Source: Paenibacillus mendelii (GTDB lineage: Bacteria; Bacillota; Bacilli; Paenibacillales; Paenibacillaceae). From it: 64,000 nt of DNA. The position numbers and the translations under genes are program-made. This document shows, piece by piece, positions 49,946 through 63,608 of this stretch (positions are counted from its first letter, which is position 1; each line of letters opens with the position of its first letter). Under the pieces are notes generated by a model, which did not search any database, was not told the DNA's origin, and was given only the letters and a program-made list of their open reading frames with translations. The stretch covers positions 434,001 through 498,000 of the forward strand of contig NZ_JANHOF010000003.1 in NCBI RefSeq assembly GCF_024498075.1, read 5' to 3'.

Positions 49946-50247
49946 GTTATAACATTCGACAAAACCGATGCGGCTAAGAGGCGTAAATCCGGTGTGAAAA
50001 AGGAATGAAAACTTGCTGCGGCGGGTTTTTTTAACTAGATTACTATACTACTTTTGATAGATAAGGGACAGTGGGAAATAGTTGTCGATTCGAAAAAAAC
50101 TCAATTTCGCAACATTTGTAAAGTGACAGAAAGCGTTCAAGAAAATCGGAAATTTTCGATTGACCGTTGTGGTAAACTAGTGCTGAAGCAGGGTAACGGA
50201 AGGGACGTGTAGTTCGATTGACGACTTTATTCAAAAGAGGGATCACC

Positions 50248-51876
50248 GTGAAATCCGGTGCTTCTATGATCACTGTATTATTTTTGATGCTAACCACGCT
50301 ATTGGTCTCGCCGGGACTTGCCTTAGCACATGCGGAACTGGAGCGTGCCGTTCCTGAGCCGAACACGCGGATGAATGAGGGGCCCGCCGCAATCGAGCTT
50401 TACTTTAACGAACCGATTGAGTCCAAGGTTGGGGCGCTCGATGTGCTCGATAAGAATTCGAAGGCTGTCACCGGCGAAGCTCCAACCGCGGGCACTGACC
50501 GCAAATCGTTAAAGCTGCCTTTGCCAAAGCTGGGTGAAGGGGTCTACACGGTTTCTTACAGTATCGTATCGAGCGACGGTCATCCGATTAGCGGATCATA
50601 CGTGTTTGTCGTCGGCAATCCGCCAGAGGCGGTTGACGCCTCCTCGTTCGATCTCCATAAACAGCTCGGACATGAAGGGCATGGCGATGTTTCGTCATTC
50701 AGTTGGAAAACCATCATTCTCTATATCGTGCGGTTCCTCTATTACAGTGCGATCCTGCTTGCGGCAGGTGTGATGCTCTGGTCACTGCTGTATAAGGGCG
50801 GCGGCGATGCGATGAACCTTGTACGGCGGAAGTGGGAGCTGCAGATCATGCGGTTCCTGCTTGTAGCGGCTATCATCTATGTATTTATGCATGCATCGGA
50901 GATGATGCAGGGCTATCCGGCAAGTGAGTATATGAAGCTGTTTGGCGAGACAGCGGTCGGGCGGAGCTGGATCGCGCTCATTGCCTTGGCTGCCGCGGGA
51001 TTCCCTATCCTGAAGCTAGGACGGATAGCGCGGGTTGTATGGGCGGCTGTTCTGCTAGGAGTAGAAAGCTGGAGCGGACATGCCGTTGTCTTTGAACCGA
51101 AGGCTGTCTCTGTTCTATTCGACTGGCTCCACCTCGCCTCTGCGGCCGTGTGGATAGGCGGCTTGGTGCTGCTGCTCGCGTTATGGTTCGAAGACCGCAA
51201 GGAAGCGGGGAGGTTCGCGATTGTTTTCTCCAGGGCTGCTCTGGCCTCCATCGCACTCCTTATTCTGACAGGCGTCGCGATGACACTAATCTTCATGCCG
51301 TCGCTGAGGTATTTATTCTATACGAACTGGGGTATCATGCTGCTCGTGAAGACAGGAGCCGTCCTGCTAGTTCTGGTCGTCGGCGCCATGCTGCGGAGCC
51401 GTGTACGGCGCGGCGATCTGCCGAATTTCTCGATGCTGCGGCTGGATCTTGGGCTGATGGTCATCATTATAGCTATCGTAGGCATCTTTACGTACATCAG
51501 TCCGCTTCCGAGCAACACTCCGGTTGTCTATCATAAGATGGGCACAGATATGCATCTGACCCTGCGCATATCGCCGAACAAGCCCGGGATGGATAACAAG
51601 TTTACGGTTAAGATATGGCTTCCCGAGAAGACCGGGGCTCCGAAGGACGTCGTGCTTCGCTTGAATTCGCTGGACCGCAAGGAGCTTGGCGCGATCGACG
51701 TGCCGCTCCAGACATACGAGGACGATGAACTTACGAGCTTCGAAGGGTTTGTTAAATCTGCTTATCAAGCGGAAGGACCCTACATGCCATTCGCAGGCAA
51801 ATGGAGTGCGGAACTGCGCGTCATGGATCAGGATGACAATGAAAAAGTGGAGAAATACGAATTCCGCAACTATTAG
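50248..51876 (+). CDS. ycnJ: Copper transport protein, CopC-CopD fusion (YcnJ)
   Basis: A 542-residue protein from GTG 50248 (AGAGGGAT upstream; the frame is open from TTG 50218). A signal peptide ends at LALA so that the mature chain begins HAELERAVPEPN, the CopC copper site with its N-terminal His; a second His is in DGHPISGSY. The CopD part follows with about eight membrane segments, then a ~110-residue extracytoplasmic C-terminal domain. It imports or handles copper in B. subtilis, where it sits with ycnI and ycnK. Here a two-component pair follows instead of ycnK. Confidence 0.92.
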   Translation: MKSGASMITVLFLMLTTLLVSPGLALAHAELERAVPEPNTRMNEGPAAIELYFNEPIESKVGALDVLDKNSKAVTGEAPTAGTDRKSLKLPLPKLGEGVYTVSYSIVSSDGHPISGSYVFVVGNPPEAVDASSFDLHKQLGHEGHGDVSSFSWKTIILYIVRFLYYSAILLAAGVMLWSLLYKGGGDAMNLVRRKWELQIMRFLLVAAIIYVFMHASEMMQGYPASEYMKLFGETAVGRSWIALIALAAAGFPILKLGRIARVVWAAVLLGVESWSGHAVVFEPKAVSVLFDWLHLASAAVWIGGLVLLLALWFEDRKEAGRFAIVFSRAALASIALLILTGVAMTLIFMPSLRYLFYTNWGIMLLVKTGAVLLVLVVGAMLRSRVRRGDLPNFSMLRLDLGLMVIIIAIVGIFTYISPLPSNTPVVYHKMGTDMHLTLRISPNKPGMDNKFTVKIWLPEKTGAPKDVVLRLNSLDRKELGAIDVPLQTYEDDELTSFEGFVKSAYQAEGPYMPFAGKWSAELRVMDQDDNEKVEKYEFRNY

Positions 51877-51903
51877 AGACATTCATCCGGGGAGGGAAGG
51901 CCG

Positions 51904-52752
51904 GTGCCGTACAATCGGATCAAATGGCTCATTCTGTCGATTCCCACCATTACCATCGCATTGTGGGAATATGTAAGGCATGCGTTTCTGCTGCCCTATA
52001 TCTCCATGGACCTTGGGAATTTATTGGCGCCGATCATTGTCCTTCTGGTTACGGTTACGCTTGTCCGCATGCTGATGGGAATGCTTGAAAAGGTGCATAA
52101 GTCGCTCCAGCAGGAACGGGCCGTGAAGGCAGGCCTTATGGAACGGGAGCAGCTGGCTCGAGAGCTGCATGACGGTATCTCGCAATCGTTGTTTCTGCTG
52201 TCTGTCAAGCTCGACAGGCTGGAGCAGGAAACGGCGGGCGGGCAGGCAGCAGAGACCGTGACTCAATTAAGAAGCACGGTTCGGCATGTCTACGAGGATG
52301 TGCGGCAATCGATAGCCAGCCTACGCACCGAGCCCGCTGTGGCGGATGTGCAGTGGATACAGGCGGTGAAACAGATGGCGGACGACTTTGCGCGAATCGG
52401 GCTTCCGGTTCAAGTGGACTGGCGGCTGCCTGATGCGATGCTTACCAATAAGGAGAAGGTCGAGCTGCTCGCGATCATTCGGGAAGCCATGTTCAATGTG
52501 CAGAAGCATGCTAGAGCCAGCCGCATGAAGGTTCGTGCGGCAGCCGAAGACGGCGGATTCCGATGCTCGGTGGTGGATGATGGCATTGGCGCGAATCTAA
52601 CGGAGCTTGGAGCTAAGGGGCGTTACGGCGTCCGCATGATGAAGGACCGGGCGTCAGCTATGGGCTGGCGGCTGGATATCGCGCCGGCTTCCGGGGAAGA
52701 CGGGATGAACGGGCTGGCCGTTGAGGTGACGAAGGAGGGAAGCGGGAGATGA
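51904..52752 (+). CDS. Sensor histidine kinase (HisKA_3, NarX/DesK type)
   Basis: A 282-residue kinase with GTG start (GGGGAGGGAAGG upstream). Two membrane segments at about 8-24 and 40-60 are joined by a very short external loop, so it senses within the membrane. The HisKA_3 box has phospho-acceptor H89 in RELHDGISQ; the ATPase domain has NVQKHA (N box) and DDGIG (G1). It overlaps the regulator gene by 4 bp. Its location between ycnJ and ycnI suggests copper or envelope-stress sensing (inference). Confidence 0.92.
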   Translation: MPYNRIKWLILSIPTITIALWEYVRHAFLLPYISMDLGNLLAPIIVLLVTVTLVRMLMGMLEKVHKSLQQERAVKAGLMEREQLARELHDGISQSLFLLSVKLDRLEQETAGGQAAETVTQLRSTVRHVYEDVRQSIASLRTEPAVADVQWIQAVKQMADDFARIGLPVQVDWRLPDAMLTNKEKVELLAIIREAMFNVQKHARASRMKVRAAAEDGGFRCSVVDDGIGANLTELGAKGRYGVRMMKDRASAMGWRLDIAPASGEDGMNGLAVEVTKEGSGR

Positions 52753-53498
52753 GCATAGAGCAGCCGATACGTGTCTTGATCGCCGATGATCATCCGCACG
52801 GACGTGAAGGCATGCGTGAGATTCTGAGCCGGGATCCTTCTTTTCAAATCGTCGGGGAAGCGCTGCACGGCGAACAGGCCGTTACGCTTGCCGCCGAACT
52901 AGGGCCGGATCTAGTGCTGATGGATATCAACATGCCCGTCATGAACGGGATGGAGGCTACTCAGCTTATTAAGACGATCGATCCGCGGATCAAGATCGTT
53001 ATGGTCACCGTGTCGGACGATATCGTTGATTTGTTCGAGGCGGTCAAACGCGGGGCTCAGGGGTATCTGCTCAAAAACCTGTCCCCTTCCTCGTGGCTGG
53101 AATATTTGCGTGGGGTGGCGATGGACGAAGCTCCAATGTCCAAGGAGCTGGCGTTCCGTCTCCTGCAGGAGTTCAATGGCGGAGGAAGGATGAACGCCTC
53201 CAATTCGGACGCAGCCGCCAACATCCCCTCCCCGCCATCGCGTTCCGTTGAGCGAACGCGGGAAGCAGCCGGCGGGGGAACCGCCGGGCAGGGGACAACG
53301 CCGCTTACCCAGCGCGAGCATGATATATTGGAGCGGGTCGCACTCGGCGATTCCAACCGCCAGATTGCGGAGACGTTCGGCATATCCGAGCATACGGTGA
53401 AGAACCATCTGAAAAATATTTTGCAGAAGCTTCATCTCGACAACCGCGTGCAGCTGACGCGCTATGCGCTGGAGAAGGGACTGTTCGGGGGAAGATAA
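52749..53498 (+). CDS. NarL/LuxR-type response regulator
   Basis: A 249-residue regulator. The receiver has D59 (LVLMDINMP) as phosphorylation site, acidic pocket D13/D14 and a conserved K at KNLSP. A ~45-residue Ser/Pro/Gly-rich linker, longer than usual, leads to a LuxR-type helix-turn-helix (LTQREHDILERVALGDSNRQIAETFGISEHTVKNHLKNIL). It partners the upstream histidine kinase, and ycnJ and ycnI are the nearest candidate targets. Confidence 0.93.
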   Translation: MSIEQPIRVLIADDHPHGREGMREILSRDPSFQIVGEALHGEQAVTLAAELGPDLVLMDINMPVMNGMEATQLIKTIDPRIKIVMVTVSDDIVDLFEAVKRGAQGYLLKNLSPSSWLEYLRGVAMDEAPMSKELAFRLLQEFNGGGRMNASNSDAAANIPSPPSRSVERTREAAGGGTAGQGTTPLTQREHDILERVALGDSNRQIAETFGISEHTVKNHLKNILQKLHLDNRVQLTRYALEKGLFGGR

Positions 53499-53606
53499 AT
53501 CGGACACTTTTTATTCACAGTCATAGCCCTTTCGAGTCATGTCCTTGGGGGTGCATGGATTTATAATTAATTCTCGTAATCCGATGAACGAGGAGGGTTT
53601 ATTTCT

Positions 53607-54248
53607 GTGAAATCCATGAAGAGATTGTCCATGATCAGCATGGCGATGCTGTCGATGCTGCTGTTTGCAAGCGTGGCTAGCGCTCATGTGACGGTTATGC
53701 CGAAGCAAGCGGCTCAAGGCAGCTATGAAGTGTTTACCGTGCGCGTTCCAAGCGAGAAGGAAAGCGTAACGACCAAGAGCATCAAGGTAACGATAGCGGA
53801 AGGGGCTGCTGTGAGCCGCGTTGAGCCTAAGCCTGGCTGGAAGTACGAGCTGGAGAAAGGTGCCGACGAAGCGATTAAGTCGGTCACGTGGACGGCGGAG
53901 GGAGACGGGCTTGCCCAGACGGAATTCACCGAGTTCAGGATGTCCGGCAAAGTGGCCGACGACGCCAAGGATCTGGTCTGGAAGGCTTATCAGACCTACA
54001 GCGACAACGAGGTCGTGGAATGGATCGGTGCTGACGATAATGCGAAATACCCGGCATCCGTTACGACCATTACAGCTGGAACCGCCAATAGCGACGGTCA
54101 CGGCGCCCCGGCTGCGGAAGCTGGTTCGGAGACCGAAGCTGAGGCAGATGAGGAAAGCGGTTCTTCTGCCGTGCAGCTTGTGCTCTCGATTGCCGCACTT
54201 GTTGTAGCTGCTGCTGCACTGATCGCGGCGCTTACCCGCCGGAAATAG
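53607..54248 (+). CDS. ycnI: YcnI-family copper-binding protein (DUF1775)
   Basis: A 213-residue protein with GTG start (GAGGAGG upstream). The signal peptide ends at ASA so the mature N-terminus is HVTVMPKQAAQGSYEVFTVRVPSEKE, the YcnI Cu(II) site with an N-terminal His. The DUF1775 domain runs to about residue 150; a Glu/Ala-rich linker precedes a C-terminal membrane helix (187-208) and a short positive tail. It anchors a copper-binding domain outside the membrane and belongs functionally with YcnJ. Confidence 0.92.
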   Translation: MKSMKRLSMISMAMLSMLLFASVASAHVTVMPKQAAQGSYEVFTVRVPSEKESVTTKSIKVTIAEGAAVSRVEPKPGWKYELEKGADEAIKSVTWTAEGDGLAQTEFTEFRMSGKVADDAKDLVWKAYQTYSDNEVVEWIGADDNAKYPASVTTITAGTANSDGHGAPAAEAGSETEAEADEESGSSAVQLVLSIAALVVAAAALIAALTRRK

Positions 54249-55820: not shown

Positions 55821-58262
55821 ATGAATGTATCCTATAAATGGTTAAGCGAATATATCGATTTGAACGGCTATACCGGTGAAGAGCTGGCGGAGCTGATGAC
55901 AGGCGGCGGGATTGAAATCGACGTCGTGGAATCGCGTAATAAAGGGGTAACCGGCGTTGTCGTCGGGCTTGTACTGACGCGGGAGAAGCATCCGGATGCC
56001 GACAAGCTGTCCGTCTGCACGGTCGATGTCGGCCAAGCGGAACCGCTGCAGATTGTGTGCGGGGCGAAGAATGTTGAAGCGGGCCAGCTTGTGCCTGTTG
56101 CTACGATTGGCGCCAAGCTGCCTGGCGATTTTGCCATTAAACGCGCAAAGCTGCGCGGTGTCGAATCGCAAGGCATGATCTGCTCGGCGAAGGAGCTGGG
56201 GATCAACGACAAGCTGCTGCCGAAGGATCAGCAGGAGGGAATTCTCGTGCTGCCGGAAGGAAACGCAATCGGCCGTTCGATCCTGGACGTTCTCGCCCTG
56301 GACGACGAGGTGCTTGAGCTTGATCTGACTCCGAACCGTTCGGATTGTCTGAGCATGCTGGGCGTCGCCTATGAAGTGGCTGCCCTGACAGGCCGTCAGG
56401 TGAAGCTTCCGGATAACCGCGTGAATGATGCGGCTGAAGCGGCTAGCGATTATGTGAGCGTCGTGATCGAAGCGAAGGAACAATGCACCCGCTACTCGGC
56501 GCGCTATATTAAGGGCATCCAAGTCGGACCGGCGCCTCTCTGGATGCAGAACCGACTAATCGCAGCAGGCATACGCCCGATCAACAATGTTGTGGACATT
56601 ACGAACTTCGTCATGCTTGAATACGGCCAGCCGCTTCATGCCTTCGATGCCGACAAGGTAAGCGGCGGCAATATCGTCGTTCGTCAGGCACGAGAAGGCG
56701 AGACGCTGGTTACGCTCGACGATCAAGAGCGTAAGCTTGAGCCGCATAATCTTCTTATCACGGATGGGGAGAGACCGCTTGCTCTTGCCGGCGTAATGGG
56801 AGGAGCGGATTCAGAAGTAACCGCAGCGACCGTTAATATTTTGCTGGAATCGGCTCACTTCGAAGGAAGCTTGGTACGGAAGACTTCACGTCAAGTCGGT
56901 CTGCGTTCGGAATCCAGCATTCGTTTCGAGAAGGGGGCAGACCCCGCACGCGTTCTTCCGGCCTTGGACCGGGCTGCTTCGCTTATGGCGAAGCATGCGA
57001 GCGGACTCGTGCTGGATGGCGTCGTAGAGGCGATCGCTTCCGCGCATAGCGAAGCGGTAGTTGAGGTATCGCTGGATAAAATCAACCGTTACCTCGGGAC
57101 AACACTTTCCCGGCTGGAAGTGGAGACCATTCTGGGCCGCCTGCAGTTCCCGTTCGAGCTGTCGCTGGAGGGGGTATTTATCGTAAATGTACCGACACGC
57201 CGCGGAGATATTAGCCGGGATGTCGACCTCATCGAAGAAGTGGCAAGGCTGTACGGTTATGACAACATCCCTACGACTCCCATTGAAGGCGAGACGACAC
57301 CAGGGGCACTCACGAAGCCGCAAGCGATCCGCCGCGAGCTCCGCAAGCGCTTGACGGATGCCGGGCTTCATGAGGTAATCAGTTACTCATTCACGCATCC
57401 TGAGCGGACGAAGCTCTTTCCATCCCTCACGAACGGAGCACAGCCCGTACGTCTGGCGCTGCCGATGAGCGAAGACCGCAGCGTGCTTCGGACAAGTCTG
57501 CTGCCGCAGCTGATCGAGACGGCTACGTACAACCACAACAGGAAGAATCACGATGTTGCGATCTTTGAAATCGGCACGGTGTTTCACACGGAAGAATCGG
57601 AGCTTACGAGACTGCCGTCGGAGAAGCACCGACTGGCTGTTCTGCTTACGGGCAGTAAGGCTGCAGCGCAGTGGAATCGCAAAGCAGTGCCGGTCGATTT
57701 CTATGATGCCAAGGGCGTATTGGAGACAATTGCGGATGTTCTGGGCGTAAGCGGTCTAATCTCCTATGAAGCGGCTCAGCCGGAGGATATGCATCCGGGC
57801 CGGACGGCAGCCGTAGTAATGGAGACAGAGAGAGGATCGCAAACAATCGGATATCTCGGTCAGCTGCACCCGCAGGTTCAGCTCGATCACGACCTGGCCG
57901 ACACGTACGTGCTCGAAATTGAACTGGCTCCATTGTACGATAAGGCTGATTTCGATATCGTCTACAAAACGCTTCCGCGCTACCCGGCGATGCAGCGCGA
58001 TATTGCCGTCGTGCTTGGAGCTGATGTCGGAGCAGGCAAGCTGATCGCATCCGTACGCGAGACGGCTGGCGGGCTGCTGGAATCGGTAAACGTGTTTGAT
58101 GTATTCACGGGTGAGAAGCTCGGAGCCGATAAGAAGAGCGTGGCGTTATCGCTTGTCTACCGTCATGCTGAGCGGACATTGACGGATGAAGAGGTCTCGG
58201 AGCTGCATAACCGCGTTGTTACAGAATTGGAACAATCTTTTGCCGCTGAATTGCGGAAATAG
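55821..58262 (+). CDS. pheT: Phenylalanyl-tRNA synthetase beta subunit
   Basis: An 813-residue subunit of normal length. The tRNA-binding EMAP-II-like domain (about 40-150) precedes B3/B4 editing domains, B5 domain (about 405-475), catalytic-like module and a C-terminal anticodon-binding FDX domain (about 715-810). GGGAGGCG lies before the ATG. The editing domain removes Tyr-tRNA-Phe. The gene closes the T-box-controlled pheST operon. Confidence 0.97.
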   Translation: MNVSYKWLSEYIDLNGYTGEELAELMTGGGIEIDVVESRNKGVTGVVVGLVLTREKHPDADKLSVCTVDVGQAEPLQIVCGAKNVEAGQLVPVATIGAKLPGDFAIKRAKLRGVESQGMICSAKELGINDKLLPKDQQEGILVLPEGNAIGRSILDVLALDDEVLELDLTPNRSDCLSMLGVAYEVAALTGRQVKLPDNRVNDAAEAASDYVSVVIEAKEQCTRYSARYIKGIQVGPAPLWMQNRLIAAGIRPINNVVDITNFVMLEYGQPLHAFDADKVSGGNIVVRQAREGETLVTLDDQERKLEPHNLLITDGERPLALAGVMGGADSEVTAATVNILLESAHFEGSLVRKTSRQVGLRSESSIRFEKGADPARVLPALDRAASLMAKHASGLVLDGVVEAIASAHSEAVVEVSLDKINRYLGTTLSRLEVETILGRLQFPFELSLEGVFIVNVPTRRGDISRDVDLIEEVARLYGYDNIPTTPIEGETTPGALTKPQAIRRELRKRLTDAGLHEVISYSFTHPERTKLFPSLTNGAQPVRLALPMSEDRSVLRTSLLPQLIETATYNHNRKNHDVAIFEIGTVFHTEESELTRLPSEKHRLAVLLTGSKAAAQWNRKAVPVDFYDAKGVLETIADVLGVSGLISYEAAQPEDMHPGRTAAVVMETERGSQTIGYLGQLHPQVQLDHDLADTYVLEIELAPLYDKADFDIVYKTLPRYPAMQRDIAVVLGADVGAGKLIASVRETAGGLLESVNVFDVFTGEKLGADKKSVALSLVYRHAERTLTDEEVSELHNRVVTELEQSFAAELRK

Positions 58263-58323: not shown

Positions 58324-58544
58324 TTCATGCTGTCAGCTTTAGTGGACGACTCGCAGACCGTTAAGTAGTGGAATTGGACGAATATTCGATGAGAATCTGC
58401 TCATCCGCTTGCATGGCCGTATTTGAATCGGTTATGCTGCGTTAAAGAAAAAATGGGCGTTATTGGCGAATACCCGACAACGTACCCGGATTCATAAACA
58501 CTTACTATTGAAAATGAAATATTTGGCGAGGAGGAACTGCCTTT

Positions 58545-61500
58545 ATGGATACTGCCGGACGGACACGCGTAACGGTTGATATATATGGAAATCAATTTCG
58601 ATTGTCAGGCCACTCAAACCCCGAGTACATCAAGCGGGTAGCGGCCGTGGTCGATGAAAATATGCATAAGCTGGCGAAGGGGTACCCCCGTCTGGATGTA
58701 CCGAAAATTGCCATGCTGGCAGCTGTACAGATGGCGGAAGATGTTTTCAGGCTGAGCCGGGAAAACGAACGGCTGCATGAAACGGAAACGCGCGCAGAGG
58801 GTCTTGCGGCAGATCTTGAACGCGCTGAGCTTACTGTAACCTCGCTGCAGGGTGAACTGGAGGCGCAGCTAGCGGACGCGGTTGCCGAGCTGGATCGGCA
58901 GCGCGAAGCTGCCGAATTGAAGCTGGCGGGGCTAAGCGAGCAGAAGGACGCAGAGCTCACACGTCTGCGGGAGCTGCAGCAGGCTGAGCTGGAACGACTC
59001 CAAGCTGAGCGTCAGTCGGAAGTTGATCGGTTGCAGGCCGAACTCGAGGCGGAGGTAGAGCGGCTGGAGGCCGAGCGTCAATCCGAGGTGGGACGACTGG
59101 AGGCTGAACGCCAATCGGAAGTCGATCGACTGCAGGCTGAGCTGCAGTCCGAGGTTGAGCGGTTGGAGACGCAGCGGTTGTCCGAGGTGGGACGACTGGA
59201 GGCTGATCGGCAAACGGAAGTCGATCGACTGCAGGCCGAGCTCAAGGCAGAGGTAGAGCGGCTGGAGGCTGAGCGTCAATCGCAAGTGGAACGGCTGAAG
59301 GGTGAACATCAGTCACTGCTTGAACGACTGGAAGCGGAACGGCAAACGGATGTTGAGCGTCTGAAGGCAGAACTGGATCGTCTCCAAGATGAGCAGCTTA
59401 TCGAGCTGGAACGTCTTGAATCAGAGCGGCAAACGGAGCTGCAATTCGAGCGTGAAGCAGCTAAAGAGGCGCTTGAGGTTGTACGGACAGCTCTAACAAC
59501 GGAGCTGGAGCAGCTGCGCGAAACGAGCCAAGCCGAGCTGCAGCGAGTGAACGAGGAATTGGAACAGACGGTTATTCTGTATAACGAAGAGGCTGCCGCC
59601 TCGGCCGAGAAGCTGGAGCGTGTACGCGAGGAAGCTCGCGGTCAGCTGGAGCGGGCGCGGGAATCCGCCCGTCTGGGCCTGGAGGGCGAACGGGAAGCGG
59701 CTAAGGCTCAACTGGAGCGGGAACAAGAGCGGGCGAGTGCGGAGCTTGCCCAGCTGCGTGAAGAGCTGGAGACAGAGCATGAACGTGTCCGTAAAGAGAT
59801 GCAAGCCGAGCACGAGCGCGCCCGTGATGAGCTGCAGCTCGAGCTGGAGCTGGAGCGTGAAGTCCATACCGAGTCGGCCGCTGCTGCCATTGAAGAGCTG
59901 GTTCGGCTGCGTACGGATTCCGAAGCCCAATTGGAACAAGTGCGAGAATCGGCCAAGAACGAGCTTGAAAGCGAGCGCCAAGCGGCAAGAGCCCGGCTCG
60001 AGCAGGCGCAGAAGGCAGCTTCGGAGGAACTAAGCCGCGAACGTGAAGCAGCCCGTGCGGAGCTTAAGCGGGTACAGGCCGAACTGGAAGGCGAGCGCGA
60101 GGCTGTTGATATAGAGCTCGCTGGCGTAAGATCCGAGCTCGAGCGTGAACGTCAAGCGGCCCGCGAGGAGCAGGATAAGCTTCGCAAGGAAATGGAAGAA
60201 GAGCGGGAGACTGCAGGTTTGCAGCTGGAACGCTTGCGCACGGAATTAAAGGCCGAACGCGAAGCAGCTAGAGTGGATCTGGAGCTGGCAGGCACTGAAT
60301 TAAACAAGCTGCGAGAAGAAGCCGCTTATGAGCTGGAGCTCGCTCAGACCGAAGCTGAGGCAGAGCTTGAACAAGCGAAGAAAGACGCCGAGGCAGAGCT
60401 TGCGCGTCTTCGTGAAGAACACGCCGCTGCAAGCACCGAAGCTTCGAATGCGTTGGAGCAGGCGATGGCCGCCGCCAAGCGGAAGCTGGAAGAGGAACGC
60501 GCCTTGGCGTCGGCGGAGCTTGAGCGGGTGAGAGCTGAGCATGCGCTGCAGCTGGAGCAAGCAAGTGAAGCTGCGAGCGGCGAGCTGGCGAAGGAGCGAG
60601 AAGCGGCAGCCCGTAAGCTGGTTCAAGAGCAGGAAGCGGCTCAAGCGATGCTGGAGCAAGCTTTGGTCGAGAGCGAAGAGCAGGCGGGCGCGCTTAAAGC
60701 CCAATTCGCCATCGAGCGGCAGGCGCTTGAGAAAGCGCAGCAGAAGGCGGCGGAAGAGCTTGAGCGCGCTCATCGCGAGGAGCTTGAACGTCAAAGCGCT
60801 GCCTGGCAGGCTGAGCTTGATCAATTAGCTGATCAGCTTAAGCAGACGCGCTATGAGCAGGAGACAACAGCCGCAGCGCTCGTCGAGCAGCAGCAGGAAG
60901 CGGACAGGCTGGCTATGGATACAGCCGAGAATGAGAAGGCTCTCCGTGCGAGCATTGAACACTTCGAGCTGGCATTGGCGGAACGCGAGGATGCGGTTGC
61001 CGAGCTGCAGCGTCAGTTAGCCGAGTTGAAGCAGAAGGAGAACAGACGCAGTCAAGCGCTGCAGCAGCAGGAAAAACAACTGATGAAGCAGCGTGACCAG
61101 CTGACGGCTTCACAGCGTCATACCGATGATGTCGAGACTCAGGTGCGACAGCTCACGGAGGTTCGCGACCGCTTGAAATCGGAGCTGGAGCAGCATGCTG
61201 CCCGGGAGCGGGAGCTTCGTCGTAAGCTCGAGCAGGCTGATCAACGGGCATCGGAAGAGACTAGACGGAATGAAACCGCATTGGCCGAAGCGAAGCAGCG
61301 GGTCGAGGAGCTCGAGCAGCGCGTTGAGCAGGCTGCGGATCAGAGCTCAGCCATATTGGCTGAAGCGCGGCGCAGGGCACTTGAGCTTGAGGGCGAAGCG
61401 GCGGAAGCTGCTAAGCTGAACGAGTCGGCGCTCGGCAGAGCGAATGCGAAGGTAGCGCAGCTGGAGAAGCAAGCGGCGGAAGCGGCGAGGTCGCAAGAAG

Positions 61501-62252
61501 CGGCGCTGAGCGAGGCGAATGCGAAGGTAGCGCAGCTGGAGAAGCAAGCGGCGGAAGCGGCGAGGTCGCAAGAAGCGGCGCTGAGCGAGGCGAATGCGAA
61601 GGTAGCGCAGCTGGAGAAGCAAGCGGCGGAAGCGGCGAGGTCGCAAGAAGCGGCGCTGAGTGAAGCGAATGCGAAGGTAGCGCAGCTGGAGAAGCAAGCG
61701 GCGGAAGCAGCGAGGTCGCAGGCAGCGGCGCTGAGCGAGGCGAATGCGAAGGTGGCGCGGCTGGAGAAGCAAGCGGCGGAAGCAGCGAGGTTGAAGGAAG
61801 CCGCGCTGAACGAAGCGAATGCGAAGGTGTCGCAGCTGGAGAAGCAAGCGGCGGAAGCGGCGAGGTTAAAGGAAGCGGCGCTGAGTGAAGCGAATGCGAA
61901 GGTGTCGCAGCTGGAGAAGCAAGCGGCGGAAGCGCTGAGGGCTAAAGAAGCGGCCCGCAGCGAGTTTGAAGCGGCACAGCTTGAAGCAGCTGCTTTTACA
62001 GAAACGGAGAGTGAGCTTCGGGAGCAGCTCTTGATCACGGAGCAGGAAGCGGATCGAACCAGCGCGCGAGTACAACAGCTAAGCTTACGTCTGGCGGAGC
62101 TGGAGTCCGTGCTTGCCGATTCGAACCGGGACGGCAATAAGCTGCGTTTGGCCCATGAACGGCTGCAGACGGATCATTCCAAGCTGCAGATCGAGTATTC
62201 TAAGCTGCAAACCGAATATAACGAGTGGATTGAGCTTATCGAAGAGAGCTAA
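58545..62252 (+). CDS. zapA: ZapA domain fused to a giant coiled coil
   Basis: A 1235-residue protein. Residues 6-75 are a complete ZapA domain (VTVDIYGNQFRLSGHSNPEYIKRVAAVVDENM, then the dimer helix), normally a ~85-residue protein that cross-links FtsZ filaments. From about 75 to 1230 the chain is a continuous Glu/Ala/Arg/Leu/Gln-rich coiled coil: hendecads at 151-300, irregular segments to 960, seven 25-residue repeats at 961-1135, then a heptad end with LQxxYSK. A helix of this length would be roughly 165 nm. GAGGAGG precedes the ATG. It follows pheT, the usual zapA position in Firmicutes, which supports orthology. No signal peptide or membrane helix. Confidence 0.9.
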   Translation: MDTAGRTRVTVDIYGNQFRLSGHSNPEYIKRVAAVVDENMHKLAKGYPRLDVPKIAMLAAVQMAEDVFRLSRENERLHETETRAEGLAADLERAELTVTSLQGELEAQLADAVAELDRQREAAELKLAGLSEQKDAELTRLRELQQAELERLQAERQSEVDRLQAELEAEVERLEAERQSEVGRLEAERQSEVDRLQAELQSEVERLETQRLSEVGRLEADRQTEVDRLQAELKAEVERLEAERQSQVERLKGEHQSLLERLEAERQTDVERLKAELDRLQDEQLIELERLESERQTELQFEREAAKEALEVVRTALTTELEQLRETSQAELQRVNEELEQTVILYNEEAAASAEKLERVREEARGQLERARESARLGLEGEREAAKAQLEREQERASAELAQLREELETEHERVRKEMQAEHERARDELQLELELEREVHTESAAAAIEELVRLRTDSEAQLEQVRESAKNELESERQAARARLEQAQKAASEELSREREAARAELKRVQAELEGEREAVDIELAGVRSELERERQAAREEQDKLRKEMEEERETAGLQLERLRTELKAEREAARVDLELAGTELNKLREEAAYELELAQTEAEAELEQAKKDAEAELARLREEHAAASTEASNALEQAMAAAKRKLEEERALASAELERVRAEHALQLEQASEAASGELAKEREAAARKLVQEQEAAQAMLEQALVESEEQAGALKAQFAIERQALEKAQQKAAEELERAHREELERQSAAWQAELDQLADQLKQTRYEQETTAAALVEQQQEADRLAMDTAENEKALRASIEHFELALAEREDAVAELQRQLAELKQKENRRSQALQQQEKQLMKQRDQLTASQRHTDDVETQVRQLTEVRDRLKSELEQHAARERELRRKLEQADQRASEETRRNETALAEAKQRVEELEQRVEQAADQSSAILAEARRRALELEGEAAEAAKLNESALGRANAKVAQLEKQAAEAARSQEAALSEANAKVAQLEKQAAEAARSQEAALSEANAKVAQLEKQAAEAARSQEAALSEANAKVAQLEKQAAEAARSQAAALSEANAKVARLEKQAAEAARLKEAALNEANAKVSQLEKQAAEAARLKEAALSEANAKVSQLEKQAAEALRAKEAARSEFEAAQLEAAAFTETESELREQLLITEQEADRTSARVQQLSLRLAELESVLADSNRDGNKLRLAHERLQTDHSKLQIEYSKLQTEYNEWIELIEES
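58995..59444 (+). repeat. Eleven-residue hendecad repeats in the ZapA-like protein
   Basis: Residues 151-300. Eleven consecutive 11-residue units of the pattern RL[QE]AE[RL]Q[SA]EV[DEG] (151-271), then a 7-residue unit and two more 11-mers. Eleven-residue periodicity predicts a straight or right-handed coiled coil rather than the usual left-handed heptad form. Confidence 0.85.
61425..61949 (+). repeat. Seven 75-bp tandem repeats (25 residues each)
   Basis: Residues 961-1135. Unit AALSEANAKV followed by [AS][QR]LEKQAAEA and [AL]R[SLA][QK]E. The first four copies are nearly identical in DNA and later copies drift. Twenty-five residues equals 11+7+7, a standard coiled-coil register. Confidence 0.92.
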
Positions 62253-62266
62253 CAACAGCCACGTAG

Positions 62267-62316
62267 AGACGCACCTGTTACCGGATCATGATCCAGTAAC
62301 AGGTGCGTCTTGTTCT
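62267..62316 (+). terminator. Terminator after the ZapA-like gene
   Basis: AGACGCACCTGTTAC (62267-62281) pairs perfectly with its complement at 62296-62310; an inner GGATCATGATCC extends it. TGTTCTTT follows. Confidence 0.8.
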
Positions 62317-62413
62317 TTCATTAATAAGTTACGCTTGTACCTGTAATACGGTCTTGAGGAAGCGTAACTAATCTGAGGATATCCAGTGTTATTTGTACAG
62401 TCACATAACGACA

Positions 62414-62450
62414 AGAAGCCGCCTTGTCCCATCGGGAGAAGGCGGCTTCT
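62414..62450 (-). terminator. Terminator after the CuA lipoprotein gene
   Basis: AGAAGCCGCCTT (62414-62425) pairs perfectly with AAGGCGGCTTCT (62439-62450). It lies just downstream of the leftward gene ending at 62465, and the minus-strand tail is TGTCGTTATG, so the T run is weak. Confidence 0.65.
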
Positions 62451-62464
62451 GCTCATATATTCGT

Positions 62465-62863
62465 TTATTCTACTACAAGCTTGGCGACCATTTTTTTGTG
62501 GCCTGTGCCGCATTGGATATTGCAATGGAATTCATATTCGCCGGCATCATTGATCGTGATGACCTTAGAGTCTCCCGAGCCCAATTTAACATCCAGATCA
62601 GAAACTTCAATACCATGTACGCCGCTTACGGATTCAAGCGTTAGCTTGACAGGCTCACCCTTTTTGATGGTGTATTCCTGTTTGTCGAATTTCCAGCTGG
62701 ATGCCTTGATCACGACTTCTTGTGAAGAAGCCGATCCCGTTGTTTCTACCCCGTTGCCCGCATTCTCCGGTGACTTATCGTTATTTTTGTTGTTCGAACC
62801 GCAGGCTGCGATAACCATAACGAATGCAGCAAGCATACACATGAACAATGCTTTTTTCATCAT
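62465..62863 (-). CDS. Stand-alone CuA (cytochrome oxidase II-like) lipoprotein
   Basis: A 132-residue protein from the ATG at 62863 (GGGAGG upstream). Lipobox A-A-C21 follows a hydrophobic segment; an Asn/Gly/Ser linker runs to about 45. The rest is a cupredoxin domain with binuclear copper ligands H83, C114, C118, H122 and M125 (HCNIQCGTGHKKM). This is the CuA motif of cytochrome c oxidase subunit II, but the two membrane helices of that subunit are missing. It could shuttle electrons or copper on the outer membrane face. The Q117 position replaces the usual Glu, whose ligand is a backbone carbonyl. Confidence 0.88.
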   Translation of the reverse strand: MMKKALFMCMLAAFVMVIAACGSNNKNNDKSPENAGNGVETTGSASSQEVVIKASSWKFDKQEYTIKKGEPVKLTLESVSGVHGIEVSDLDVKLGSGDSKVITINDAGEYEFHCNIQCGTGHKKMVAKLVVE

Positions 62864-63014
62864 TAGTAATAACCCTCCCATTTCTCTGAACTGTTATTTT
62901 GACGTACCTATACTAGTATAGCGTCATTCGGACAAAATGTTAGTGTGCAGCCATGGTGCTCCTTTGAACATTTGATGAACAAATTGTAGCAGATTTGTTA
63001 TGGATGAACGAAAA

Positions 63015-63059
63015 ACCGAGCCTCGCCAAGAAGGAGTGATCCTTCTGATGAGACTCGGT
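63015..63059 (-). terminator. Terminator after the YvlD-like gene
   Basis: ACCGAG (63015-63020) pairs with CTCGGT (63054-63059) with an inner AAGAAGGA/TCCTTCT stem. On the minus strand GGTTTTTCG follows. Confidence 0.7.
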
Positions 63060-63097
63060 CTTCTGTTTGGCAGTTATGGTGCGGCAATGCCCGCCGG

Positions 63098-63463
63098 TTA
63101 CTTCCGGCTTTCCTGTTTTCGTCCGGCTTCATATGGTGAGCTGACTGGTATAAACAGGTCGATGATACCGATCACCAACGCAGCCAGAATCGCTCCAAGC
63201 CAAGTGACCGATACGCCACCGACGATAAACTGTGCAATCCAGATGACGACGGCGCTTGCCAGGAACCCGACAATGCCTCTGCCGAACGGAGTGACTCGTT
63301 TACCAAAGATGCCTTCGATGATCCAGCCGAGTAGCGCGATTACGACTGCCAGGAACAGTGCGCTCCAGAAACCGCCTACGCTGAATTGGGGCACGATATA
63401 ACCGACGATCATAAGGACGATCGCGGATACGACGAAGCGAACAATATGTCCCAGAAAGTGCAT
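63098..63463 (-). CDS. YvlD-like four-helix membrane protein (phage holin superfamily IV)
   Basis: A 121-residue protein from the ATG at 63463 (AGGAGGG upstream; the frame is open to 63535). Four closely packed membrane helices (about 5-25, 32-52, 60-82, 90-108) with short loops and the family pattern GGFWSALFLAVVIALL...FIVGGVSVTWLGAILAALVIGIIDLF. The family, known as mycobacterial four-TMS phage holin IV, is mostly chromosomal and has no proven holin function. YvlD is linked to cell envelope stress in Bacillus. The C-terminus is short and charged. Confidence 0.87.
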   Translation of the reverse strand: MHFLGHIVRFVVSAIVLMIVGYIVPQFSVGGFWSALFLAVVIALLGWIIEGIFGKRVTPFGRGIVGFLASAVVIWIAQFIVGGVSVTWLGAILAALVIGIIDLFIPVSSPYEAGRKQESRK

Positions 63464-63608
63464 TCGGAACCCTCCTATTCGTATTTGTAAAAGTTTCGAT
63501 GCAACAATTAGTGTTTCCGCGATTACGCCAGACATGCATGGTAGCTTACGTCATGGCATACGTTGTCAGCTTCGGCTATAATAAGGAACGAGAGGGGTTG
63601 TGCTCAAG

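Follow-up and report, generated by a model that had tools for sequence, protein, structure and literature searches.

The zapA gene of Paenibacillus mendelii described here, in a 64,000-nucleotide stretch of DNA (the window; positions 434,001 to 498,000 of contig NZ_JANHOF010000003.1), encodes a giant ZapA in which a ZapA head is followed by about 1150 helix-compatible residues and closed by an 18-residue tip that ends nearly all ZapA proteins of the order Paenibacillales, short and giant alike. The gene (58545..62252, plus strand) begins with ATG and forms a single open frame of 1235 codons in the open reading frame (ORF) list of the window, well outside the usual small size of ZapA. The gene name is not new, but the size and the head-coil-tip architecture are. 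A sequence-only reading of the window had proposed an intact ZapA domain, encoded by a syntenic zapA after pheT and extended by a giant continuous coiled coil that could tether FtsZ filaments to a distant partner (membrane, peptidoglycan synthase or chromosome) or set a fixed spacing in the Z-ring; the conserved tip and the order-wide distribution of the architecture are new relative to it. No account of long-ZapA architecture was found in the titles and abstract starts of open-licence PMC papers, a set outside which most subscription papers fall.

An orthologous ZapA with conserved ends and a variable coil

Judged by its domain, its gene place and its similarity to a solved ZapA, the giant protein is an orthologous ZapA. 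Residues 1-85 (58545..58799, plus strand), searched by themselves, match the Pfam ZapA family PF05164 with 59.2 bits (cut-off 23.8), and the same family was matched by 43/43 heads of the head alignment. A profile of the head matched the solved ZapA structure PDB 2mmv with 98.6 bits in a comparison of sequences only, and similarity to enteric ZapA (PDB 9isj, 4p1m) was merely marginal, at 14-15 bits. At the surface with which KpZapA contacts FtsZ, most residues differ in the alignment, the invariant Gly15 corresponding to Gly12 of KpZapA, Arg19 to Arg16, Pro48-Asp51 to residues 46-49 and Gln62 to Asn60. The gene place is equally consistent: pheT (55821..58262, plus strand; TIGR00472, 890 bits) ends 282 bases before the start of zapA and precedes it in 168 of 169 loci, in and outside the order, with gaps of 12-1010 bases, the lone locus without it (G589) being one where only 1491 upstream bases were covered. 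This shared position argues that these zapA genes are orthologues, and both the ZapA identity with its intact domain and the synteny after pheT, as first read from the window, are borne out.

Family models recognize the protein less readily when it is scanned whole. The full 1235 residues score 63.9 bits against the NCBIfam ZapA model NF010724, under its cut-off of 80, and no Pfam family is hit at E<=1e-3; in practice, a full-length giant ZapA slips past Pfam at this threshold. When the giant's head was used to query a protein database, 111 candidates came back, none at E<=0.001; a search with a 426-residue relative returned one match. Fusion with a second known domain was considered and rejected, none being present in the Pfam or NCBIfam scans.

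At the other end of the protein, the tip spans residues 1216-1233 (IEYSKLQTEYNEWIELIE; 62190..62243, plus strand) and follows the pattern EYxKLQTEYNEWIELIE. It was identified by pattern in 143 of 149 ORFs of the order, representing 129 distinct sequences of 138-1892 residues (with a median of 902; 109 sequences reach 400 residues or more and 54 reach 1000 or more). In the nearest relative of this genome (G010, locus L060) the zapA frame changes inside the 75-base array described below, which leaves the tip in the next frame; sequencing error, decay or slippage could each account for the change. The other tip-less ORFs enter a gap of N (G020 and L129, the tip of G020 being found past the gap), are cut by a contig end (G022, with the tip on another contig, and L172) or belong to a 123-residue form with a divergent end (G037). 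A profile made from the final 60 residues, to which 56 of 59 genomes of relatives supplied rows, matched 59/59 of them (G010, G020 and G022 being found without contributing), with one match each except for a weak second match in one genome (G057:C3:93079-93210, minus strand; E 1.2e-4), which lies inside a 1057-residue open frame. Such a near-single match per genome suggests that in these genomes the tip is an element of ZapA and not a common coiled-coil motif.

Between the two ends, the variable coil (residues 86-1215; 58800..62189, plus strand) is mostly heptad- or hendecad-patterned and free of proline. The last proline of the protein is residue 53, and residues 91-1235 contain none, where 48.5 would be expected from the composition of six neighbouring proteins. 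Hydrophobic periodicity was assessed against 500 shuffles, none of which reached the periods of 3.66 at residues 141-300 (hendecad, 11/3), 3.50 at residues 751-900 (heptad) or 3.56 at residues 961-1140 (25/7). The periodicity of residues 76-150, 301-450, 451-600 and 601-750 was reached by 4, 4, 1 and 6 shuffles, respectively, and that of residues 901-960 and 1141-1235 is weak (36 and 109 shuffles). Over 109 proteins, residues at i and i+4 tend to carry complementary charges (autocorrelation averaging -0.16), a pattern shared by coiled coils and single alpha-helices. A continuous coiled coil over the whole arm is therefore well supported as a prediction but short of proof from end to end; the giant coil of the sequence-only reading stands.

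Purifying selection acts on head, coil and tip alike. The 109 long forms contain 12 prolines in 94,859 coil residues, with none in 99 of the proteins, and the ratio of nonsynonymous to synonymous substitution rates (dN/dS), taken from the 26 most closely related pairs out of 57, is 0.10-0.20 for the coil, compared with 0-0.09 for the head and 0-0.23 for the tip, some of the coil alignments being uncertain owing to repeats. The low coil dN/dS and the scarcity of proline together indicate that the coil is under selection as a protein and stays helix-compatible. Its sequence is otherwise loosely kept. When 20 genus members are aligned, conservation is 0.82-0.92 in the head bins, 0.88 in the tip, mostly 0.3-0.7 in the coil and 0.05 in an array private to this genome. 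Mid-coil bins range from 0.05 to 0.73, and conserved islands occur solely near the C-terminus, where residues 1141-1170 (61965..62054, plus strand) form a further island, whose two 15-residue bins score 0.81 and 0.75.

Two tandem arrays on the plus strand, as read in the DNA, show the mode of coil growth. A 33/99-base array (58986..59307) codes for an 11-residue, hendecad repeat, and a 75-base array of 6.9 copies (61439..61954) codes for a 25-residue repeat. The latter is recent and lineage-specific: most of its columns in the genus alignment are filled by this genome alone, although the nearest relative, G010, which was left out of that alignment, carries a similar array. A Ser/Ala-rich open frame of 265 residues runs antisense to the 75-base array (61340-62137, minus strand) and is probably a by-product of the codon composition of the repeat.

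The tip as a probable displaced last helix

The tip probably represents the last helix of ZapA itself, which the coil now separates from the head. Ordinary Bacillota ZapA ends ...DEYFRLRQEYEELLKLLQ, and a profile built solely from 15 ZapA last helices of species outside the order gave the tip a higher score than any coil window in 60 of 62 long ZapAs, and in 114 of 119 when a larger set, including three truncated ORFs, was scored. Random coil blocks of equal size won in 111 of 2850 draws, and in a few proteins windows of the head outscored the tip. In a profile-profile comparison, the tip aligned without gaps to residues 65-82 of ordinary, 85-residue ZapA at 50% identity, with a score of 23.4 and a probability of 63%; the highest score among 55 coil windows, taken as a control, was 13.5.

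The giant protein has also partly kept this helix at the homologous position beside the head (residues 65-82; 58737..58790, plus strand). In 67 of 119 long ZapAs the helix beside the head outranks every window of the coil, and in 65 of 119 both it and the tip do so, which points to duplication. The simplest history would accordingly be one in which the terminal helix was duplicated and the protein then grew by tandem repeats between the two copies.

Distribution and length of ZapA across relatives

ZapA was found by head search in 59/59 relatives. A zapA of about 100 residues in close relatives, looked for specifically as evidence against the giant gene, did not occur among the 20 genus members with complete ORFs. 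Measured from the start codon, the ORFs span 767-1495 residues in the 20 genus members with complete ORFs and 123-1663 residues over the 59 relatives, three of whose ORFs are incomplete. Seventy named loci were retrieved with the head of the window's protein, 68 labelled Paenibacillus and two Bacillus sp., and the tip is intact in 68 of the 70. Some members of intermediate length are already annotated in databases as "cell division protein ZapA". An assembly artefact was rejected as the origin of the long ORF, since relatives share the architecture and the genomes of several of them consist of a single contig. Repeats in zapA coincide with an N gap (L061/L129) or with a contig end (L083, which is G022, and L172) in some assemblies; a practical consequence is that such repeats fall at assembly breaks, as in G020, G022 and L172.

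Broader draws of genomes locate the long forms in the order. ZapA was matched in 296/296 genomes of an order-wide draw, the longest member retrieved having 1892 residues. A class-wide draw gave matches in 366 of 398 genomes, among which, in the matches listed, 38 order members have 528-1343 residues and all others 82-157. A phylum-wide draw gave matches in 266 of 299 genomes, the frames listed from outside the order spanning 83-171 residues except for four of another Bacillota family (f75). Among all matches listed, non-order Bacillota frames are thus of 82-171 residues apart from these four. The four were examined as candidate giant forms elsewhere in the phylum and rejected among the matches listed: their frames of 248-354 residues from stop to stop shrink to 151-187 residues from the chosen start and have no coil. 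These ZapAs (L109-L112) carry Gly/Pro/Ala-rich tails, an independent, non-coil extension.

A PheT tree of 93 rows, built with a fast method that gave long-branch warnings and left many forks unresolved, places the order's 73 rows in one group (Shimodaira-Hasegawa-like approximate likelihood ratio test, 98). Forms of at least 400 residues versus shorter ones need 6 changes on this tree, compared with a shuffled mean of 29.9, and the starred branches force at least 2. Forms of intermediate length (123-384 residues) occupy many of the early branches, as would be expected if ZapA was first moderately extended and giants arose later. Across the whole order, then, a ZapA rod is predicted that is up to about 20 times longer than normal, with its ends kept and the length of its middle free.

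Coil length itself is neither conserved nor quantised. It differs even between close pairs and shows no coherent phase for periods of 7, 11, 18 or 25 residues (near-copies included, n=123). Total length varies roughly two-fold within the genus and from 138 to 1892 residues across the order, so that the fixed spacing in the Z-ring suggested earlier is not supported.

The relation of long ZapA to EzrA was also assessed. A profile search gave no EzrA match in this genome. Among the 59 relatives, 20 match at E<=1e-3, six pass the Pfam cut-off (45.6-71.9 bits) and none reaches E<=1e-20. The six frames over the cut-off (G027, G029, G039, G040, G047 and G055; 554-904 residues), none of which is from this genus, are possibly divergent EzrA or else other coiled-coil proteins; the weak EzrA matches resemble those of archaeal controls, which, however, stay under the Pfam cut-off. 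In a class sample, EzrA was found at E<=1e-20 in 73 of 121 genomes. The 48 without it include 10 order members among the matches listed, and six non-order genomes without it have, again among the matches listed, ZapA frames of just 82-133 residues. Loss of EzrA as the cause of giant ZapA is not supported, other Bacilli without EzrA having kept a short ZapA. In B. subtilis, loss of zapA is severe only when FtsZ levels are low or when ezrA, divIVA or whiA is also absent, and is otherwise silent (PMC6126333). Because that loss shows when ezrA is missing, and no EzrA match was obtained here, ZapA may by analogy matter more in this genome.

A possible long-reach cross-linker of FtsZ

We tentatively propose, at slightly less than an even chance, that the giant ZapA is a long-reach cross-linker of FtsZ. 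Its heads would dimerise and bind the N-terminal tail of FtsZ as in known ZapA, its coils would run as parallel dimers, and its tip, as the displaced ancestral self-association helix, would join two dimers, most simply tail to tail or else by antiparallel overlap. Fully extended, the 1145 residues at 0.15 nm each would give such a two-headed cross-linker a reach of about 340 nm tail to tail, or about 170 nm in antiparallel overlap, compared with the short helical bundle of ordinary ZapA. Its role would be that of a long and loosely specified tether, gathering or condensing separated FtsZ filaments, and not that of a ruler: since length is not conserved, precise spacing is unlikely and a loose tether fits better. 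The tether role envisaged in the sequence-only reading thereby remains plausible, and is strengthened by the conservation of both ends.

Several features of known systems are consistent with this arrangement. The N-terminus of FtsZ reads MLEFDF in 18 of the 20 relatives in which it was read, this genome included, and Phe4 has been proposed as the hook of Gram-positive ZapA on the FtsZ N-terminal tail (PMC12216130). In E. coli-type ZapA (PMC6917738), two dimer heads are joined by a C-terminal helix bundle, tetramers formed through the C-terminal helix are needed for FtsZ bundling, and the I83E mutant, unable to form the bundle, does not thicken FtsZ bundles; this mutant ZapA also binds only sparsely (PMC12216130).

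A wider version of the proposal seems rather unlikely to us: the whole order would build its Z-ring with self-assembling two-headed ZapA rods, derived by duplication of the last helix and growth between the copies, and one chain might replace ZapA together with ZapB- or EzrA-like layers. If true, rods would measure up to about 270 nm per coil, or double if joined tail to tail, and cross-link reach would be a freely evolving variable.

Some observations weigh against long-reach cross-linking. Drift would equally give an absence of length conservation, and common descent of tip and last helix, although likely, falls short of proof, the match being only 18 residues long and partly favoured by the rarity of tyrosine in the coil. 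Other signals are mixed: an antiparallel charge register gave a z-score of -3.7 at its best offset and +4.0 at its worst, with controls ranging from -2.2 to 2.8. In head-tip covariation, the best pair reached a z-score of 4.8, compared with 6.0 for the best head-head pair (199 rows, effective number of sequences 82, relatedness included).

We regard as improbable an alternative in which the tip folds back on the ZapA head of its own or a partner chain and competes with the FtsZ N-terminal tail, making the arm a hairpin or antiparallel rod and the whole a regulatory latch more than a cross-link. In crystals of K. pneumoniae and E. coli ZapA, the C-terminal tail does overlap the groove of the head that the FtsZ N-terminal tail occupies (PMC12216130), several short order members (G044, G048 and G056) have Pro/Gly-containing breaks directly before the tip helix, and some of the strongest head-tip covariation pairs, relatedness included, involve position 62, the counterpart of the FtsZ-contacting Asn60. 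Folding back is harder to reconcile with a mid-coil that has neither a conserved hinge nor a proline, and with a register signal that is not clearly above controls.

Equally doubtful is the possibility that coil and tip form an inner scaffold binding another partner, such as the nucleoid, a peptidoglycan synthase or another protein, one chain standing for ZapA, ZapB and MatP of E. coli. In E. coli, ZapB lies about 40 nm inside FtsZ/ZapA and MatP 30 nm further (PMC4388696), and pneumococcal ZapA has a partner of its own, ZapJ (PMC8687745); the tip and the island at residues 1141-1170 could serve as docking sites. The tip, however, resembles ZapA's own helix and no known partner motif (no partner search was made), and the coil sequence diverges fast. 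Least probable is that the coil is a tolerated repeat expansion by slippage, with selection keeping helicity and solubility and length being functionless, as the patternless lengths, recent tandem arrays and length differences between close pairs would allow, but against which stand the coil dN/dS of 0.10-0.20, an intact and mostly long coil in nearly all order members and the few reversions to short forms within long clades of the PheT tree.

Genomic neighbourhood

A likely ribosome-binding site for zapA, AGGAGG, was read at 58529..58534 (plus strand), 10 bases 5' of the ATG. The pheST-zapA block is possibly surrounded by a copper-handling set. Upstream of pheS lie genes for a CopC-CopD fusion, a histidine kinase, a LuxR-type regulator and a DUF1775 protein (50218-54248, plus strand), and zapA is followed by a cupredoxin-like gene (62465-62881, minus strand). 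The interval from zapA to mutS2 (62253-63599) holds this gene and a phage-holin-4-like gene, both on the minus strand; B. subtilis has cvpA and polX at the corresponding place. An Rfam scan of the window returned no match.

Comparison with known systems

The closest known relative is the Bacillus/Geobacillus-type ZapA (PF05164; PDB 2mmv, 86 residues), which shares the head sequence, the place after pheT and the last-helix pattern DEYxRLxxEYxELLxL, but ends soon after that helix and has neither a coil nor a second copy as tip. Enteric ZapA shares the head family, and its cross-linking via bundled C-terminal helices is the feature that the giant form may echo; its coil is short, and E. coli has a separate coiled-coil partner, ZapB, which is reported to be restricted to Gammaproteobacteria (PMC8687745). 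A high rigidity of the ZapA tetramer is assumed (PMC6917738). EzrA (PF06160) is likewise a long helical FtsZ regulator of Gram-positives, but is membrane-anchored, spectrin-like and without a ZapA head, and the giant ZapA does not match the EzrA profile (Pfam, E<=1e-3).

Long coiled coils between functional parts of one protein are also found in the arms of SMC. SMC arm lengths are periodic (PMC5344682), unlike giant ZapA lengths, which lack such phase, and a conserved mid-arm hinge of the SMC type is absent from giant ZapA in the 20 genus members. Like coiled-coil molecular spacers (PMC5082667), giant ZapA combines conserved ends with a diverging coil sequence. Such spacers typically conserve length, with length variation 3.6 times lower than elsewhere (PMC5082667); giant ZapA, with whole-protein lengths of 138-1892 residues, departs from that rule, and has the appearance of a protein that grew longer between two copies of one of its own helices. 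The role of cross-linkers in Z-ring shape is a standing question, for which the order offers a natural length series with head and tip kept, making it testable whether the reach of ZapA, its stiffness or mere bivalency matters in ring condensation.

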